Shown: positions 5,737 through 25,255, counted from the first letter of the stretch. The stretch: DNA of 32,734 nt from SAR324 cluster bacterium (GCA_016764995.1 JAESQU010000143.1:1-32734), one strand, 5' to 3'. Program-made: numbers and translations. The notes: generated by a model not told the origin, from the sequence alone.

Positions 5737-7323
5737 ATGAAAAATAAACGTAAAAACATCTTGTTCATTACGGCAGATCAATGGCGTGGTGATTCCCTGG
5801 GATGTGTTGGTCACTCCGTGGTATTGACACCTAACATAGACCAACTTGCCAGAGAAGGGGTGATTTTTCGTAAACACTATACCCAAACTGTACCTTGTGG
5901 ACCGGCAAGAGCCTCTTTGTTAACAGGACTGTATGCGATGAACCATCGTTCAGTCAATAACGGAACTCCATTGAATGGACGTTTCACCAACATTGCTTTG
6001 GAAGCTCGCAAATCCGGCTACGATCCAACTTTGTTCGGTTACACTGACACTTCAGCCGACCCTCGTGATTTCCATCAAAAAGATCCGTTGCTGACCACAT
6101 ACGAAGGATTGATTCCGGGAATGAGTAGCGGAGTGACATTGACGAACAACCAACGCCCGTGGATTGCGGAGTTGATTACCAAGGGTTATGATCAAACATT
6201 GAATCAGCACACTGTGTATGATCCTATCCCAAACTACCCCGGAGCGGAGAAACGCGGTGCGACTTTTCCTCCACCGGTTTATTCTAATGAAGACAGCAGT
6301 GCGGCATTTTTGACAGATGAGCTTCTCAAGTGGTTAAGTGTTCGTGTAGCAGAAAACTGGTTTGCTCATTTATCTTTTTTGCGGCCTCATCCGCCGTGGA
6401 TTGCACCGGAACCTTATAACACAATGTATGATCCTTCCGATGTATCAAAACCGATGCGCAGAGAATCGTTGAAGCAAGAGGGAAAACAGCATCCACTCCT
6501 GAAAATGCTTCATGCAAAAATTCCGCGAAGTAAATTTTTTTCAGACAATTATCAGGGACTTGCCGCTGAGACAAGTGAAAAGGATATTTTACAGGCACGC
6601 GCAACCTATTATGGTTTGATGAGTGAGATTGATCATCATTTGGGCAGAGTAATCTCATATTTAAAGCAATCAGGACAATATGAATCCACGCTGATTGTTT
6701 TTACGAGTGATCATGGAGAACAACTGGGAGATCATTATTTATTCGGCAAAGTGGGATATTTCGATGCATCTTATTCAATACCCTTGATTATCCGGAATCC
6801 AGAAAACGCTGTCCTATCGTCTGGTAAATCATTTGGTTCAGCTAATTCAATTGAAGTATTCACGGAAGGAATTGATGTGATGCCCACCATTTTAGACTGG
6901 CTGGGAGCAGAAATTCCGGAAGAAATTGATGGCCGTTCACTCTTGCCTTTCCTGAACGGAAATGTTCCGGAGAACTGGAGAACAGAGGCGCATTGGGAAT
7001 ACGACTTCCGTGAAATAGGTTCGTTTCAACCAATGATTGAACAACAATTCGGCTTGTCTCCGGATCAATGTTCGCTGACGGTTATACGTGATGATCGTTA
7101 TAAATATGTTCACATGACAGCCCTGCCTCCACTTTTGTTTGATTTGCAAGATGATCCGGAAGAATTTGTGAATCGAGCAGATGATCCGGATTGTCGGAAT
7201 ATTGTTTTGGAATATGCGCAAAAAATGCTTTCGTGGTCTATGCTCCACCGAGACCGCACGCTCGTTAACATAAATATGGAATCCGGCAGCCTTGTTCATT
7301 GGAAAGGTCCAAGGATTTTATGA
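5737..7323 (+). CDS. Formylglycine-dependent sulfatase/phosphonate monoester hydrolase family enzyme
   Basis: A 528-aa alkaline-phosphatase-superfamily hydrolase. The N-terminal metal site is NILFITADQWRGDS. The activation motif is C54-GPAR followed by ASLLTG, in which the Cys is normally oxidised to formylglycine. The second metal cluster is FTSDHGEQLGDH. The segment TVPCGPARASLLTGLY with MNHRSV and the later GYDPTLFGYTDTSADPR resembles the phosphonate monoester hydrolases of Rhizobium and Burkholderia more than ordinary arylsulfatases; those enzymes are promiscuous on phosphonate and phosphate monoesters and on sulfates. No signal peptide is visible, so it appears cytoplasmic. It lies 30 nt after gcvH with no Shine-Dalgarno. 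No sulfatase-maturing enzyme (FGE or anSME) is in the window. Confidence 0.85.
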   Translation: MKNKRKNILFITADQWRGDSLGCVGHSVVLTPNIDQLAREGVIFRKHYTQTVPCGPARASLLTGLYAMNHRSVNNGTPLNGRFTNIALEARKSGYDPTLFGYTDTSADPRDFHQKDPLLTTYEGLIPGMSSGVTLTNNQRPWIAELITKGYDQTLNQHTVYDPIPNYPGAEKRGATFPPPVYSNEDSSAAFLTDELLKWLSVRVAENWFAHLSFLRPHPPWIAPEPYNTMYDPSDVSKPMRRESLKQEGKQHPLLKMLHAKIPRSKFFSDNYQGLAAETSEKDILQARATYYGLMSEIDHHLGRVISYLKQSGQYESTLIVFTSDHGEQLGDHYLFGKVGYFDASYSIPLIIRNPENAVLSSGKSFGSANSIEVFTEGIDVMPTILDWLGAEIPEEIDGRSLLPFLNGNVPENWRTEAHWEYDFREIGSFQPMIEQQFGLSPDQCSLTVIRDDRYKYVHMTALPPLLFDLQDDPEEFVNRADDPDCRNIVLEYAQKMLSWSMLHRDRTLVNINMESGSLVHWKGPRIL

Positions 7324-7491: not shown

Positions 7492-7977
7492 ATGCCCTGT
7501 TCGATAGTCCGCGAAGTTATAGATCTTGAAGCCCTGCGACTGCGTGCGCAACATCCTCAAGCTGGGGCAGTTTTAATTTTTTATGGAGATATCCGAAATC
7601 ACAGTCAACAGCAGGAAGTGTCGTACTTGGAATATGAAGCCCATGAAAGCATGGCACTGAAACAGATCTCACAGGTTGTTGAAGAAGCTCAGAAAAAATG
7701 GCAGCTTCACACGGTAGAAGTTATTCACCGCCTCGGTAAACTTGCGGTGAAAGATTGCTCAATTGCCATTGCTGTTTCTACTTCACATCGTGGTGATGCT
7801 TATGAAGCAAGTCGTTACATCATTGATACAATCAAACATGCTGTGCCAATTTGGAAAAAAGAACATTTTGTTGATAGTCCGGCCATGTGGAGTAAAGGTT
7901 GTGAAGCAAGCAGTGTTGTCGCAGAAAATGCTGAAGCTCCTGCTGTTGTGAAAGAAGAGGTGACAGAATGCAATTAG
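7492..7977 (+). CDS. moaE: Molybdopterin synthase catalytic subunit MoaE
   Basis: MoaE, with thiocarboxylated MoaD, converts precursor Z (cPMP) to molybdopterin. The family signature is intact: H99-R100 in TSHRGDAYEAS, K115 in DTIKHAVPIWKKEHF and K122, which line up with the active-site residues His103, Arg104, Lys119 and Lys126 of E. coli MoaE. The last 22 residues form an Ala/Glu-rich tail beyond the usual domain. The ATG at 7492 has a GGAG Shine-Dalgarno. Its 3' end overlaps the 2-phosphoglycerate kinase gene by 10 nt, implying co-translation. No moaD, moaA, moaC or other molybdenum-cofactor gene is present, and the link to its downstream partners is not explained by known biology. Confidence 0.93.
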   Translation: MPCSIVREVIDLEALRLRAQHPQAGAVLIFYGDIRNHSQQQEVSYLEYEAHESMALKQISQVVEEAQKKWQLHTVEVIHRLGKLAVKDCSIAIAVSTSHRGDAYEASRYIIDTIKHAVPIWKKEHFVDSPAMWSKGCEASSVVAENAEAPAVVKEEVTECN

Positions 7978-9134
7978 AAATTATACGCCAGGACAGATCA
8001 AAACATCCCTTCATGAGGGGAATGCTGGCCCACAAACTGATTCAGCGTGGATTATCTTTTGATCAGGCCTACCAGATCTCAAAAGATGCCAAATCATTTT
8101 TTCATGAACAAGCAGAGGTTAGCTCAGAATCCTTAATGCGGTCGGTTGACGCATTGATCGTTAAGCGTTACGGAAAGGAACTGTTGAAGGGGCTGACAAA
8201 GGAACTCTTTCCCTCAGGCAAACAAATCTGCGTTTTTCGAAGAAACGCAACCGCTCCATTTTCAAAAGGTTTATTAACACAATCGATTACCGCTTCTGGC
8301 TTAAAACCGGAAGAAGCATTCCAAATTGCTTTTGAGTTGGAAGCAAATTTGATGAAAGAAGACATTCTACGTATCAGTAAAAAGAAATTATTTGGAGAAG
8401 TTTTCAGCATCATCAAGAACAAATATAACTCTCATATTGCAGACTTATATAAATTGGCCAGCCGAATTGACGAATTGGATCGACCTGTGATTATTTATCT
8501 TGGTGGTGCTTCCGGAACAGGAAAATCGGTCATGTCAACCTTTTTAGCCGGAAGACTGGGCATTAACAAAATTACAGGTACCGACACTATTCGTGAGATC
8601 ATGCGGCTTGTTTTTAAAAGAGATTTGCTTCCTTCTTTGCATAATTCCTCTACCAAAGCCGGTATTGGAATGCCAAAGACATTGGAGAAAAGTGCCCGCT
8701 TAATCGGTGGGTTTTGTTTGCAGGCTCAGCAGGTTAGTGTTGGAGTGAAAGCTGTAGTTGATCGTGCCGTCAAAGAAAAGACTAGCATGATTATCGAAGG
8801 CATTCATTTGCTGCCAAATATGCAACAGGCCATCAAAGAAGGCACCAAACGGGCATTTCACATTCCCATCACACTGTCTCTGATGAATGAGAAAGACCAC
8901 AGAGATCGATTTTTTGAAAGAGGCAAAGGAAACGAATTAAGGAGAAAGGAGATCTATTTACGCAGCTTTGAAAATATTAGAACTATTCATGAATTTGTTA
9001 ACTTAGAGAGTGAAAAAAACGAGATTGAAGTTGTCGACAATGAGGATTTTGACGAAACAACAAATACTCTGATGCAATTAATCATTAATACTCTGCAAGA
9101 GCAGGTAAATTCAATTAATCTAACTAAATCCTGA
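7968..9134 (+). CDS. 2-phosphoglycerate kinase with tandem ATP-cone domains
   Basis: A P-loop kinase with Walker A GGASGTGKS at residues 179-187, followed by TGTDTIREIMR, which in archaeal 2-phosphoglycerate kinases lies next to the substrate site. Those enzymes convert 2-phosphoglycerate plus ATP to 2,3-bisphosphoglycerate, best known as the first step of cyclic 2,3-diphosphoglycerate synthesis in methanogens. The N-terminal half has two ATP-cone-like modules: residues about 1-75 (PFMRGMLAHKLIQRGLSFDQA) and about 85-165 (VFRRNATAPFSKGLL...), so ATP or dATP sensing is likely. At 388 aa it is longer than the roughly 300-aa methanogen enzyme. It overlaps moaE by 10 nt and is followed after 9 nt by an aPGAM-like gene. 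The substrate is inferred from family. Confidence 0.8.
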   Translation: MQLEIIRQDRSKHPFMRGMLAHKLIQRGLSFDQAYQISKDAKSFFHEQAEVSSESLMRSVDALIVKRYGKELLKGLTKELFPSGKQICVFRRNATAPFSKGLLTQSITASGLKPEEAFQIAFELEANLMKEDILRISKKKLFGEVFSIIKNKYNSHIADLYKLASRIDELDRPVIIYLGGASGTGKSVMSTFLAGRLGINKITGTDTIREIMRLVFKRDLLPSLHNSSTKAGIGMPKTLEKSARLIGGFCLQAQQVSVGVKAVVDRAVKEKTSMIIEGIHLLPNMQQAIKEGTKRAFHIPITLSLMNEKDHRDRFFERGKGNELRRKEIYLRSFENIRTIHEFVNLESEKNEIEVVDNEDFDETTNTLMQLIINTLQEQVNSINLTKS

Positions 9135-9143
9135 ATTTATTTT

Positions 9144-10367
9144 GTGTATAGAATTCCTCGACTAATTCTGATTATAGACGGCATGGGGGATCGTCCGATT
9201 CTTGAATTGGGCGACAAAACCCCATTGCAGTCAGCAAATTTGCCTGTGCTGGACAGATTGGCTCAGGAAGGGCAATGCGGTGTTGCGGATCCAGTCAAGC
9301 GTGGCATTGTTGCCACAACAGTTTTAGGTACTTTGGCAATACTCGGTTATGATCCTCTCAAGTATTCAATTGCACGGGGAGTGATTGAGGCTCATGGCAG
9401 CGAGATGGAGATCATGCCGGGTGACGTAGCATTTCGTGGAAATTGGGCGACCCTTGATGATCAAGGAAAGATAGTGGATCGCCGCGCGGGACGCCTTCGT
9501 GAAGGCACAGAAGAATTAGCCTCCAGTCTCTGCGGGCTAAAGGTTGAGGATATTACAGTTGATGTTGGCGCCGGAACGGAACACCGTGTTGCCGTAGTTC
9601 TCAGGGGTGCAGGACTTGGGGATTGTGTCTCCGGAAGCGATCCGGGAGATCGATATCGTTCAGGTATAAAACCTCGACTCCCAATACCACTGAATAAAAA
9701 TGATGAAAAAAGTTACCGAACCGCAAAATTGTTGAATCTGTTTGAGCTTGAAGCAAGAAAGATTTTAGCGAAACATCCGCTAAATATAGCGCGTGTGTCA
9801 AAAGGACTTTTTGCGGCAAATGCAATTTTGACCAGAGAACCGGGACAAGTTAAGACGTTACCTAAATTAAAACGTCCGTCCGGATTTGGTTTGTCCGGAG
9901 TTTGTATCAGCGGTGATGACACTATTTCCGGGATTTCACGAGTGACAGGAATGGATGTCTGTAAAACTCCGGAAATGACAGCAAATCTGGATACCGATTT
10001 AAAACAGAAATTTATGCTTGCCGCAAAAATGTTAACAAAATACGGAGTTGTTGTCCTGCACATAAAAGGTTGTGACATTGCGGCACACAACAGACAAGCA
10101 GTAAAGAAGAAGGAATTTCTCGAAAAAATAGATGCTGAACTTGGACGATTTCTAAACAAGTGGAGCGGGAAATTGCGGATTGCCGTTACTGCCGATCATG
10201 CTACTTGGAGCCAAGAAGGAATACATGTTGATGATCCTGTCCCTGTTTTACTGCACGGACGTGGGATTTCAGCAGATTCAGTGAAAGGATTCGATGAATT
10301 TCAAGCATCGGAAGGAAAGTTGGGATTGTTCAGAATGTATAAATTGTGGTCCAAATTTTTTGCCTGA
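9144..10367 (+). CDS. Archaeal-type cofactor-independent phosphoglycerate mutase homologue with Thr for Ser nucleophile
   Basis: A 407-aa member of the aPGAM branch of the alkaline phosphatase superfamily (3-phosphoglycerate/2-phosphoglycerate interconversion). Metal-site motifs are intact: IDGMGDRP (D12, D16), HIKGCDIAAH (the Asp and His of the late metal site) and TADHAT followed by HVDDPVPVLLHG. The usual motif PGSDTAH-L-ILGYDP reads ATTVLGTLAILGYDP here: the catalytic Ser aligns with T59, the following Asp with V60 and the His with T63. Thr is a known nucleophile in other members of the superfamily (nucleotide pyrophosphatases, phosphonoacetate hydrolase), so the enzyme could be active on a different substrate. 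It starts with GTG, 9 nt after the 2-phosphoglycerate kinase stop. Confidence 0.82.
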   Translation: MYRIPRLILIIDGMGDRPILELGDKTPLQSANLPVLDRLAQEGQCGVADPVKRGIVATTVLGTLAILGYDPLKYSIARGVIEAHGSEMEIMPGDVAFRGNWATLDDQGKIVDRRAGRLREGTEELASSLCGLKVEDITVDVGAGTEHRVAVVLRGAGLGDCVSGSDPGDRYRSGIKPRLPIPLNKNDEKSYRTAKLLNLFELEARKILAKHPLNIARVSKGLFAANAILTREPGQVKTLPKLKRPSGFGLSGVCISGDDTISGISRVTGMDVCKTPEMTANLDTDLKQKFMLAAKMLTKYGVVVLHIKGCDIAAHNRQAVKKKEFLEKIDAELGRFLNKWSGKLRIAVTADHATWSQEGIHVDDPVPVLLHGRGISADSVKGFDEFQASEGKLGLFRMYKLWSKFFA

Positions 10368-10542: not shown

Positions 10543-14459
<3,917 letters not shown>

Positions 14460-23766: not shown

Positions 23767-24420
23767 ATGCAAACTTTAACAAATATGATTATTGAGCACG
23801 GGCTAAGAGATCGAATTATTCGGATTAGTCAATTGAGTAGTTTAGTAGGTGGCAGTGAAGGACGACTTTATGGATTACTTAATCGTGCGTTAAGTAATGG
23901 GGAATTATTACGTCTGCAGCGCGGATTATACATTTTGGCGGACCGCTTTCGCCGAAACCAAGCTCACCCTTTTTCTCTCGCTAATGCCCTCATTCCAGGC
24001 AGTTATATTTCCTTTGAAACAGCATTATCTTTTCATAATTGGATTCCGGAACATGTCCTTACAACTGCTTGTGTGGTCCCTGGCAGAAAATCACAAAAAT
24101 ATGTAAATGAAAAAATTGGAAATTTTAGCTTTCATCCACTTGCCATAAATAAAGGCTACTTTTTAGAATTGGTGAACAGACACCATGTAGATGGACAGAC
24201 AATGTTGATTGCAAAACCTTGTCGTGCCTTAATGGACTTAATTTGCTTGAGGAAAATTGATTGGCAAGGAATGGGTTGGCAATCTGAAGGTTTACGTATT
24301 GATTCAGATTTGTTGCGTAGTATCACAAAAAAAGATTTAAAAATACTAATGCATGTTTACAAACATCAGCGGATTAAATCCTTTATCCGTTCAATGATTG
24401 AGGAGATATATTTTGATTGA
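23767..24420 (+). CDS. AbiEi-type antitoxin/transcriptional regulator
   Basis: A 217-aa protein with an N-terminal winged-helix-like segment (RIIRISQLSSLVGGSEGRLYGLLNRALSNGELLRLQRGLYIL, about residues 17-58), then the AbiEi core with the phrase SYISFETALSFHNWIPE and KPCRALMDLICLRK. In type IV AbiE systems this protein neutralises the nucleotidyltransferase toxin and represses the operon. Its 3' end overlaps the toxin gene by 8 nt, and the promoter has an inverted repeat over the -35 box. The assignment rests on motif order and the gene pair. Confidence 0.82.
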   Translation: MQTLTNMIIEHGLRDRIIRISQLSSLVGGSEGRLYGLLNRALSNGELLRLQRGLYILADRFRRNQAHPFSLANALIPGSYISFETALSFHNWIPEHVLTTACVVPGRKSQKYVNEKIGNFSFHPLAINKGYFLELVNRHHVDGQTMLIAKPCRALMDLICLRKIDWQGMGWQSEGLRIDSDLLRSITKKDLKILMHVYKHQRIKSFIRSMIEEIYFD

Positions 24421-25255
24421 ACTGATTCAGAAAAAAATTAGTGAGTTCAAAGCAAAGAATCAACTGGAAGAAGATCACGCCATTAGGGAAATTTTACAGG
24501 ATATTGCCTTGTATGGTTTGTGGCGCACTGGTTTTTTTGATGTTGCTGCGTTTCAGGGAGGGACAAGCTTACGGATTCTACATGGAATGTCAAGGTTTTC
24601 GGAAGACCTTGATTTTATATTAAAAACTCCGGACCTGAGTTTTAGCTGGTCGACATACCTAAGCGGGATGTCAGATTGTTTTGCAGAGTTCGGGCTCAAA
24701 TCGGAGATCCTGAACAAAGAAAAGATGGATCAACGTGTAAAGAAAGCTCTGATCAAAGATAACTCCATCGGCAAACAACTAAACCTTTCATTTTATCGCG
24801 AAAACCCTAATCGAAAACAAAAAATAAAACTGGTAATTGATGTCGATCCACCTTCAAATTCTTTTTTTGAAAACAGCTTTCTGGACTTTCCTTTGGATTT
24901 TGAAGTGTGCCACCAGGATTTGGAAAGTAACTTTGCTTTGAAAATACATGCCATGCTCTGTCGGCCATATCTGAAAGGGAGGGACTGGTTTGATTTTAGC
25001 TGGTATGTGAAAAATCAAATCCACCCAAATCTGCCTCACCTGCAGGCTGCACTTTTACAATGGGGGCCGTGGAAAAATCAAGAATTGAAGATTGATATAA
25101 AATGGCTTAAAAGTAAATTAACTGAAAAGATTCTGAAAATAAACTGGCAGGATGCTGCAATTGATGTTGAACGATTTCTAAGTGTTCAGGAACAGCACAG
25201 CTTAAAATTATGGAGTGTTAAGTTTTTCATACACAAAACAGATATGATGAACTAG
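24413..25255 (+). CDS. AbiEii/AbiGii-type nucleotidyltransferase toxin
   Basis: A 280-aa protein of the DNA-polymerase-beta-like nucleotidyltransferase fold: GGTSLRILHGMSRFSEDLDF (GGTS at residues 49-52, D65 and D67 as the metal-binding DxD), the third acidic strand VIDVD, and KGRDWFDFSWY, the family's motif IV. Homologues stop growth on phage infection by nucleotide transfer to tRNA or other targets. The frame can be read from a TTG at 24398, but TTG at 24413 has a good Shine-Dalgarno (AGGAG at 24401-24405, 7-nt spacing) and is preferred; either start overlaps the antitoxin stop. The toxin looks intact. Confidence 0.87.
   Translation: MIELIQKKISEFKAKNQLEEDHAIREILQDIALYGLWRTGFFDVAAFQGGTSLRILHGMSRFSEDLDFILKTPDLSFSWSTYLSGMSDCFAEFGLKSEILNKEKMDQRVKKALIKDNSIGKQLNLSFYRENPNRKQKIKLVIDVDPPSNSFFENSFLDFPLDFEVCHQDLESNFALKIHAMLCRPYLKGRDWFDFSWYVKNQIHPNLPHLQAALLQWGPWKNQELKIDIKWLKSKLTEKILKINWQDAAIDVERFLSVQEQHSLKLWSVKFFIHKTDMMN

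Follow-up and report, generated by a model that had tools for sequence, protein, structure and literature searches.

The biosynthesis of cyclic 2,3-diphosphoglycerate (cDPG) combines 2-phosphoglycerate kinase (2PGK) with cDPG synthetase (cDPGS; PDB 8oru). 2PGK has been characterised in Methanothermus fervidus (Lehmacher and Hensel 1994, as cited in PMC10690619), and hyperthermophilic methanogens are described as the only organisms with cDPG (PMC10690619). The role of 2PGK in the absence of cDPGS has been stated as an open question for mesophilic class I methanogens (PMC2686161). A 2005 paper pointed out, as a case of archaeal-like gene content, that Thermus and Deinococcus have both 2PGK and a COG3635 phosphoglycerate mutase (PMC1274311); the passage mentions neither an operon nor a residue change. 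Here we describe a 32,734-nucleotide stretch of DNA from SAR324 cluster bacterium (GCA_016764995.1 JAESQU010000143.1:1-32734), analysed at its full length and called the window below, in which a 2PGK homologue is followed directly by a homologue of the archaeal-type phosphoglycerate mutases (aPGAMs) with Thr at the position of the catalytic Ser. We give about an even chance to the reading that the two genes form a conserved 2,3-bisphosphoglycerate (2,3-BPG) module, in which the Thr protein would most likely be a 2,3-BPG phosphatase acting outside glycolysis. A search of the literature available without subscription found no paper on a Thr-type phosphoglycerate mutase linked to 2PGK.

An aPGAM homologue with a changed nucleophile

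Open reading frame (ORF) calls place three genes on the + strand between positions 7492 and 10367, overlapping or 9 nt apart. The first, moaE, overlaps the kinase ORF by 10 nt; a gap of 9 nt separates the kinase from the aPGAM homologue, which starts with a GTG codon. A sequence-only reading of the window had described this layout and had paired a 2PGK homologue with an aPGAM homologue. Both descriptions hold: the best NCBIfam matches of the kinase are 2PGK models, and the third protein exceeds the cut-off of TIGR00306 (apgM; 348 bits against 320) and also matches PF10143. The following features of this protein carry our argument, with metal-ligand roles taken from the aPGAMs and the cofactor-independent phosphoglycerate mutases (iPGMs).

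9144-10367, + strand: aPGAM-family (alkaline phosphatase superfamily) protein of 407 amino acids (aa), Thr-nucleophile type (TIGR00306, structures, tree)
9177-9179, + strand: Asp12, inferred metal ligand (invariant in Thr-type alignments; role from aPGAM/iPGM)
9318-9320, + strand: ACA codon of Thr59, at the catalytic Ser position of aPGAM (GSD motif of 3kd8)
10074-10088, + strand: D311-x3-H315, inferred metal ligands (invariant; role from aPGAM/iPGM)
10194-10226, + strand: D351, H352 and H361, inferred metal ligands (invariant; role from aPGAM/iPGM)

The family score and the nearest solved structures, the aPGAMs 3kd8 and 3idd, would both suit a glycolytic phosphoglycerate mutase, typical or with minor divergence, that lies beside 2PGK by chance or supplies its substrate. 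The active site argues otherwise. The canonical GSDxxH motif (GSDTSH in 3kd8) reads TTVLGT in the window protein, which has Thr59 in place of the catalytic Ser that marks an aPGAM, and whose motif Asp and His are gone. Thr occupies the nucleophile position in all intact members from the SAR324 family ([ST]T[VAT]), and the six positions of the two-metal site (D12, D311, H315, D351, H352 and H361) are invariant in the alignments, their ligand roles being assigned by homology to aPGAM and iPGM. Moreover, the window genome carries a canonical Ser iPGM (motif GGSEVGH), and nearly all SAR324-family genomes searched have an iPGM, so that 3-phosphoglycerate/2-phosphoglycerate mutase activity of the aPGAM-like protein would be dispensable. 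With a Ser iPGM in the genome and an altered nucleophile, the protein is not a normal glycolytic mutase, and the view of the partner as an ordinary aPGAM, which the sequence-only reading allowed, is not supported. The gene is also lost or decaying in several genomes that keep the kinase. We reject an ordinary glycolytic aPGAM as the likely role, and consider the glycolytic explanation as a whole rather unlikely.

The same exchange in the iPGM family

A Ser-to-Thr change beside 2PGK is also found in a second enzyme family. On contigs labelled Glassbacteria and Gemmatimonadales (L106, L107, L108), 2PGK is directly followed by an iPGM-family protein with the motif GSTAVGH; relative to GNSEVGH of the Bacillus stearothermophilus iPGM (1ejj), Ser is replaced by Thr and Glu by Ala. 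We take the exchanged Ser of 1ejj to be Ser62. Two of these genomes (G385, G383) also encode a canonical GNSEVGH iPGM, which makes the Thr form an extra copy there; no second iPGM was found in G384 or G386. Since iPGM and aPGAM, though members of one superfamily, are separate families, the alignments indicate that the change has been repeated independently at least once.

Thr nucleophiles also bear on the main alternative to a 2,3-BPG phosphatase. In this alternative, the Thr protein would be a 2,3-BPG-primed phosphoglycerate mutase resembling phosphopentomutase, a phospho-Thr enzyme with a bisphosphorylated intermediate, and 2PGK would supply the primer, which accounts for a nearby kinase making 2,3-BPG. 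Phosphopentomutase is a mutase of the alkaline phosphatase superfamily with a Thr nucleophile, and the iPGM-type motif GSTAVGH presumably resembles its active-site motif, a likeness that we count in favour of priming. A structure search with the AlphaFold model of the window protein returned aPGAMs first and phosphopentomutase next, although the model (mean pLDDT 65, below 50 in the active-site region) is too weak for the geometry of the active site to be assessed. A primed mutase would, however, be redundant, with a cofactor-free mutase already in most of these genomes, and in Abyssobacteria G075 the Thr form stands alongside two aPGAM paralogues of the Ser type. We therefore regard priming as unlikely, and continue to favour a phosphatase.

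Conservation in SAR324 and distribution of the Thr form

The window genome (G000) is 85% complete, and the genomes compared are mostly metagenome-assembled, so that absence from a single genome is weak evidence; the family-wide pattern is consistent. The kinase occurs in 16 of 17 genomes of the same genus and in 12 of 14 other genomes of the family; none was found in 10 genomes of the sister family (one marginal 19-bit hit was disregarded). Kinase and aPGAM homologue are adjacent in 13 of the 17 same-genus genomes, among which G007 has the locus cut by a contig end and G001 has a shortened one; three more genera of the family show the same adjacency (G018, G021, G022). The nearest named contigs that share this gene order (L169-L182) carry the labels SAR324 cluster, Deltaproteobacteria or Proteobacteria, in line with the placement of the window genome in the SAR324 group. 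All three genes of the locus are under purifying selection, with ratios of nonsynonymous to synonymous substitution rates (Ka/Ks) of 0.05-0.16, the aPGAM-like gene having the highest. Given this recurrence and these ratios, the arrangement is not due to chance, and the pair, whose absence from relatives would have spoken against the sequence-only reading, is conserved. Both G002 and G005 have an intact kinase beside an aPGAM-like gene full of stops and frameshifts, and nine other family genomes retain the kinase with no aPGAM homologue detected; among the SAR324-family genomes searched there is no case of an aPGAM-like gene without the kinase.

To place the Thr form more widely, we determined the residue at the nucleophile column for ∼120 aPGAM homologues, a number that includes repeated loci; the Ser background of the close family comes from ∼60 genomes, mostly without 2PGK. 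The phylum search for archaeal cDPG producers (Methanobacteria) covered 36 genomes, whose loci stand outside this typing. In the close aPGAM family, Thr occurs only in genomes with 2PGK and/or cDPGS; these are raw counts, uncorrected for phylogeny, and a single lineage event accounts for most of the Thr clade. The carriers are SAR324, Abyssobacteria, one further family (f38), a genome of another family (G280) and Thermococcus; the other close homologues have Ser, and one distant protein has Ala. G280 encodes 2PGK directly beside an aPGAM with the motif GTE, and a separate canonical iPGM. After masking of the motif columns, a tree groups the Thr proteins of bacteria (SAR324, Abyssobacteria, f38 and G280) in one clade (support 100/98), so they probably derive from a single event followed by inheritance or transfer. 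The exchange in Thermococcus may be separate from the bacterial one, a point on which two trees differ.

cDPG-type operons with the same pair

The sequence-only reading remarked that no cDPG cyclase gene is present, and our sequence searches agree: cDPGS has no match in the window genome or in any sampled SAR324-family genome, which leaves no sign of a hidden cDPGS in SAR324. Close relatives of the pair do accompany cDPGS elsewhere. Abyssobacteria (G075 and relatives; among named contigs, Candidatus Abyssobacteria SURF_17 and one contig labelled Poribacteria) have an operon of 2PGK, cDPGS, a Thr-type aPGAM (GTD) and a CBS protein, in a genome (G075) that also has two Ser-type aPGAM paralogues; its cDPGS matches PDB 8oru at 2e-131. 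Genomes of family f38 with cDPGS carry an aPGAM of the same Thr type. A Thermococcus genome has cDPGS, aPGAM (GTD) and CBS genes in a row, with 2PGK elsewhere and a Ser paralogue also present. These operons, with Thr-type aPGAM and 2PGK of the same clade, support the earlier suggestion of 2,3-BPG as the likely shared metabolite. As they point to 2,3-BPG or cDPG and SAR324 lacks cDPGS, 2,3-BPG is left as the likely substrate in SAR324, where it is probably itself the product.

cDPGS also adjoins 2PGK in more than 40 contigs, mostly labelled Actinomycetota/Coriobacteriia, and in two further bacterial families (L098; L101). The contigs are L121, L124-L133, L135-L147, L149-L154, L156-L160, L162, L163, L166, L168, L171, L177, L180 and L181. 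cDPG-type operons thus exist in bacteria, and there is an apparent bacterial cDPG pathway in these contigs, in contrast to the described restriction to hyperthermophilic methanogens.

By eye, genes for CBS-domain proteins adjoin 2PGK/cDPGS modules in Glassbacteria, Abyssobacteria and Thermococcus; beside the kinase that precedes the Thr-type iPGM, they occur in L106 and L109. Such a protein is a possible adenylate sensor. The genes, as read by eye, are:

L106, 1624-2070: CBS-domain gene
L109, 7377-8000: CBS-domain gene
L078, 9797-10240: CBS-domain gene
L370, 3917-4333: CBS-domain gene

The kinase and its substrate

The C-terminal part of the kinase is a P-loop kinase domain, preceded on the N-terminal side by two ATP-cone-like regions; the predicted fold of the kinase domain is nearest to nucleoside monophosphate/adenylate kinases.

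7968-9134, + strand: 2PGK homologue of 388 aa (NCBIfam PRK04220, PRK12337; alignments)
7980-8192, + strand, approximate: first ATP-cone-like region, aa 5-75 (alignment to PF03477-matching relatives)
8223-8462, + strand, approximate: second ATP-cone-like region, aa 86-165 (alignment to PF03477-matching relatives)
8502-8528, + strand: Walker A motif GGASGTGKS (sequence)
8580-8606, + strand: TDTIREIMR motif, common to bacterial and archaeal 2PGKs (alignment)

PF03477 has no direct Pfam hit in the window kinase, and the ATP-cones are assigned through alignment to relatives that do match. The P-loop, TDxIRE and LHxSS motifs are present, and GxxGxGK[ST] is kept in 12 of 12 aligned 2PGKs. The protein aligns nearly full-length with PRK04220 (1e-84, 284.5 bits, below the 343-bit equivalog cut-off) and scores 283.7 bits against PRK12337 (2e-84; cut-off 603). 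By homology, it would make 2,3-BPG from 2-phosphoglycerate and ATP.

The scores below the 2PGK equivalog cut-offs leave room for another substrate. The kinase might act on a different phosphorylated acid or polyol, with the Thr protein as a phosphatase or phosphotransferase for that product, unrelated to glycolytic intermediates. Precedents for such shifts are found on both sides of the pair: a relative of the kinase, mevalonate-3-phosphate 5-kinase, differs in substrate, and the aPGAM homologue PhpG has turned transferase, according to its NCBIfam description. However, kinase and Thr-type aPGAM of the same clade share operons with cDPGS, an enzyme that takes 2,3-BPG as its substrate, and the alignment shows active-site blocks that the window kinase has in common with the 2PGKs of cDPG operons. 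We find another substrate quite unlikely, and retain 2,3-BPG in what follows.

A proposed 2,3-BPG module

In the mechanism that we propose, the 2PGK homologue would phosphorylate 2-phosphoglycerate with ATP to give 2,3-BPG. The Thr protein, with its aPGAM fold and metal site, would act on 2,3-BPG, hydrolysing it to a monophosphoglycerate via a phospho-threonine intermediate and so opposing the kinase. The ATP-cone regions of the kinase could tie 2,3-BPG synthesis to the adenylate/dATP state; together with the nearby CBS proteins, they suggest adenylate control. In SAR324, the product would be 2,3-BPG itself, which might serve as an effector or buffer phosphate, whereas in relatives with cDPGS the same pair would accompany cDPG synthesis; the sequence-only reading had put forward a switch or an osmolyte or phosphate store as possible roles. 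Within the superfamily, SPAP is a true phosphomonoesterase that has a Thr nucleophile, while Escherichia coli alkaline phosphatase is intolerant of a Ser-to-Thr change (PMC3145672).

In one family genome (G020), the kinase has no aPGAM-like partner and lies between pstSCAB/phoU-like genes and a Na/Pi symporter with a PhoU-like domain (L069:2350-11200). This setting, a single case, is compatible with a phosphate-related role.

Several observations weigh against the proposed module. The SAR324 proteins lack the Asp and His of GSDxxH, and their chemistry may differ from that of the cDPG-operon enzymes. The kinase scores do not reach the curated 2PGK cut-offs, and its actual substrate could be a related compound. 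2PGK occurs without a Thr-type aPGAM in genomes of families f23 (Thermus-like by sequence) and f14 (Desulfurobacteriaceae-like), the aPGAM of the f23 genomes being typed as Ser only; because such genomes exist, the link between Thr and 2PGK runs in one direction. G085 has the Thr protein and cDPGS with no detectable 2PGK. Finally, a distant aPGAM subfamily (Coriobacteriia, Methanococci; loci L371, L374, L369, also L264, L262, L255, L277, L273) has Thr (GTELAHF/GTEVAHF) without 2PGK adjacency, so that Thr alone is no proof of 2,3-BPG specificity, and the strong form of the idea, Thr as an exclusive marker of 2PGK partners, is rejected. In three inspected loci of this subfamily, a gene with a GRDSxAA motif is a close or direct neighbour.

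More tentatively, these loci may belong to a widespread and previously undescribed control module for 2,3-BPG (and cDPG) in bacteria and archaea, which would join an adenylate-sensing 2PGK to a Thr-nucleophile 2,3-BPG enzyme with independent origins in the aPGAM and iPGM families, in many cases accompanied by a CBS sensor; in SAR324, 2,3-BPG would be a regulatory or phosphate-buffer metabolite without cDPG. We think this broader picture possible, with less confidence than in the module proposed above. As 2PGK is present in many organisms without cDPGS, a Thr partner in two enzyme families provides a concrete, assayable hypothesis for its role in them. Proteins annotated as phosphoglycerate mutase in such genomes are probably misannotated.

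moaE and neighbouring genes

The first gene of the locus encodes a MoaE homologue (PF02391, 124.9 bits against a cut-off of 23.4).

7492-7977, + strand: moaE, molybdopterin synthase large subunit homologue (PF02391, 2e-36)

The 10-nt overlap and its conservation across the genus and genus g4 might suggest that MoaE takes part in the pathway, for example by molybdenum cofactor supply to an enzyme of the same route, and the sequence-only reading had coupled moaE to the pair. On synteny we reject it as a pathway part: within the family, moaE adjoins the kinase only in the window genus and g4, and three genera of the SAR324 family, Abyssobacteria, G280 and Glassbacteria have the pair but no moaE next to it. 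We judge a functional link very improbable. Because of this restricted adjacency, the overlap is best read as a local operon arrangement, and moaE is probably a local passenger.

Upstream, 5737-7323 encodes a sulfatase-family protein nearest the PehA phosphoric/sulfuric ester hydrolase (618 bits against a cut-off of 900); g4 has a gene resembling it beyond moaE (L068). Downstream, 10543-13320 encodes a 925-aa protein in which a biotin-carboxylase-like domain is fused to a biotin carrier domain, with a long middle region that lacks a Pfam match; its NCBIfam matches are all below cut-off. Two adjoining ORFs at 23767-25255 resemble, by eye, an AbiEi/AbiEii-type antitoxin-nucleotidyltransferase pair.

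Comparison with known systems

The window kinase shares its P-loop, TDxIREIMR and LHxSS motifs and ATP-cone with methanogen 2PGK (PRK04220). It differs in having two ATP-cone-like regions, in its score (284 against the 343-bit cut-off) and in its setting, a marine SAR324 bacterium whose genome lacks cDPGS. The nearest approach to cDPG biosynthesis (2PGK and cDPGS) is in Abyssobacteria, where 2PGK and a Thr-type aPGAM of the SAR324 clade flank cDPGS; no sampled SAR324 genome has that enzyme. A membrane-bound cDPG hydrolase has been described in Methanothermobacter thermautotrophicus (PMC1224877), and nothing in our analysis equates it with the Thr protein.

PhpG (NF038358), a phosphonoformyl transferase, is an aPGAM homologue that has come to catalyse a reaction on phosphoglycerate other than the mutase reaction. 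The window protein scores 239 bits against its 545-bit cut-off, and no phosphonate genes are seen nearby; with a score so far below the cut-off, a PhpG-like phosphonate role was discarded. SPAP (PMC3145672) resembles the window protein as an alkaline phosphatase superfamily enzyme with a Thr nucleophile; SPAP and phosphopentomutase belong to other families and provide a mechanistic analogy only. The closest relatives are the aPGAMs themselves (TIGR00306, PF10143; 3kd8, 3idd, 2zkt), with which the window protein shares full-length homology, an inferred fold and the metal-ligand positions. It departs from them in its nucleophile, Thr for Ser, in the loss of the GSDxxH Asp and His, in being dispensable for glycolysis, and in its tie to 2PGK.

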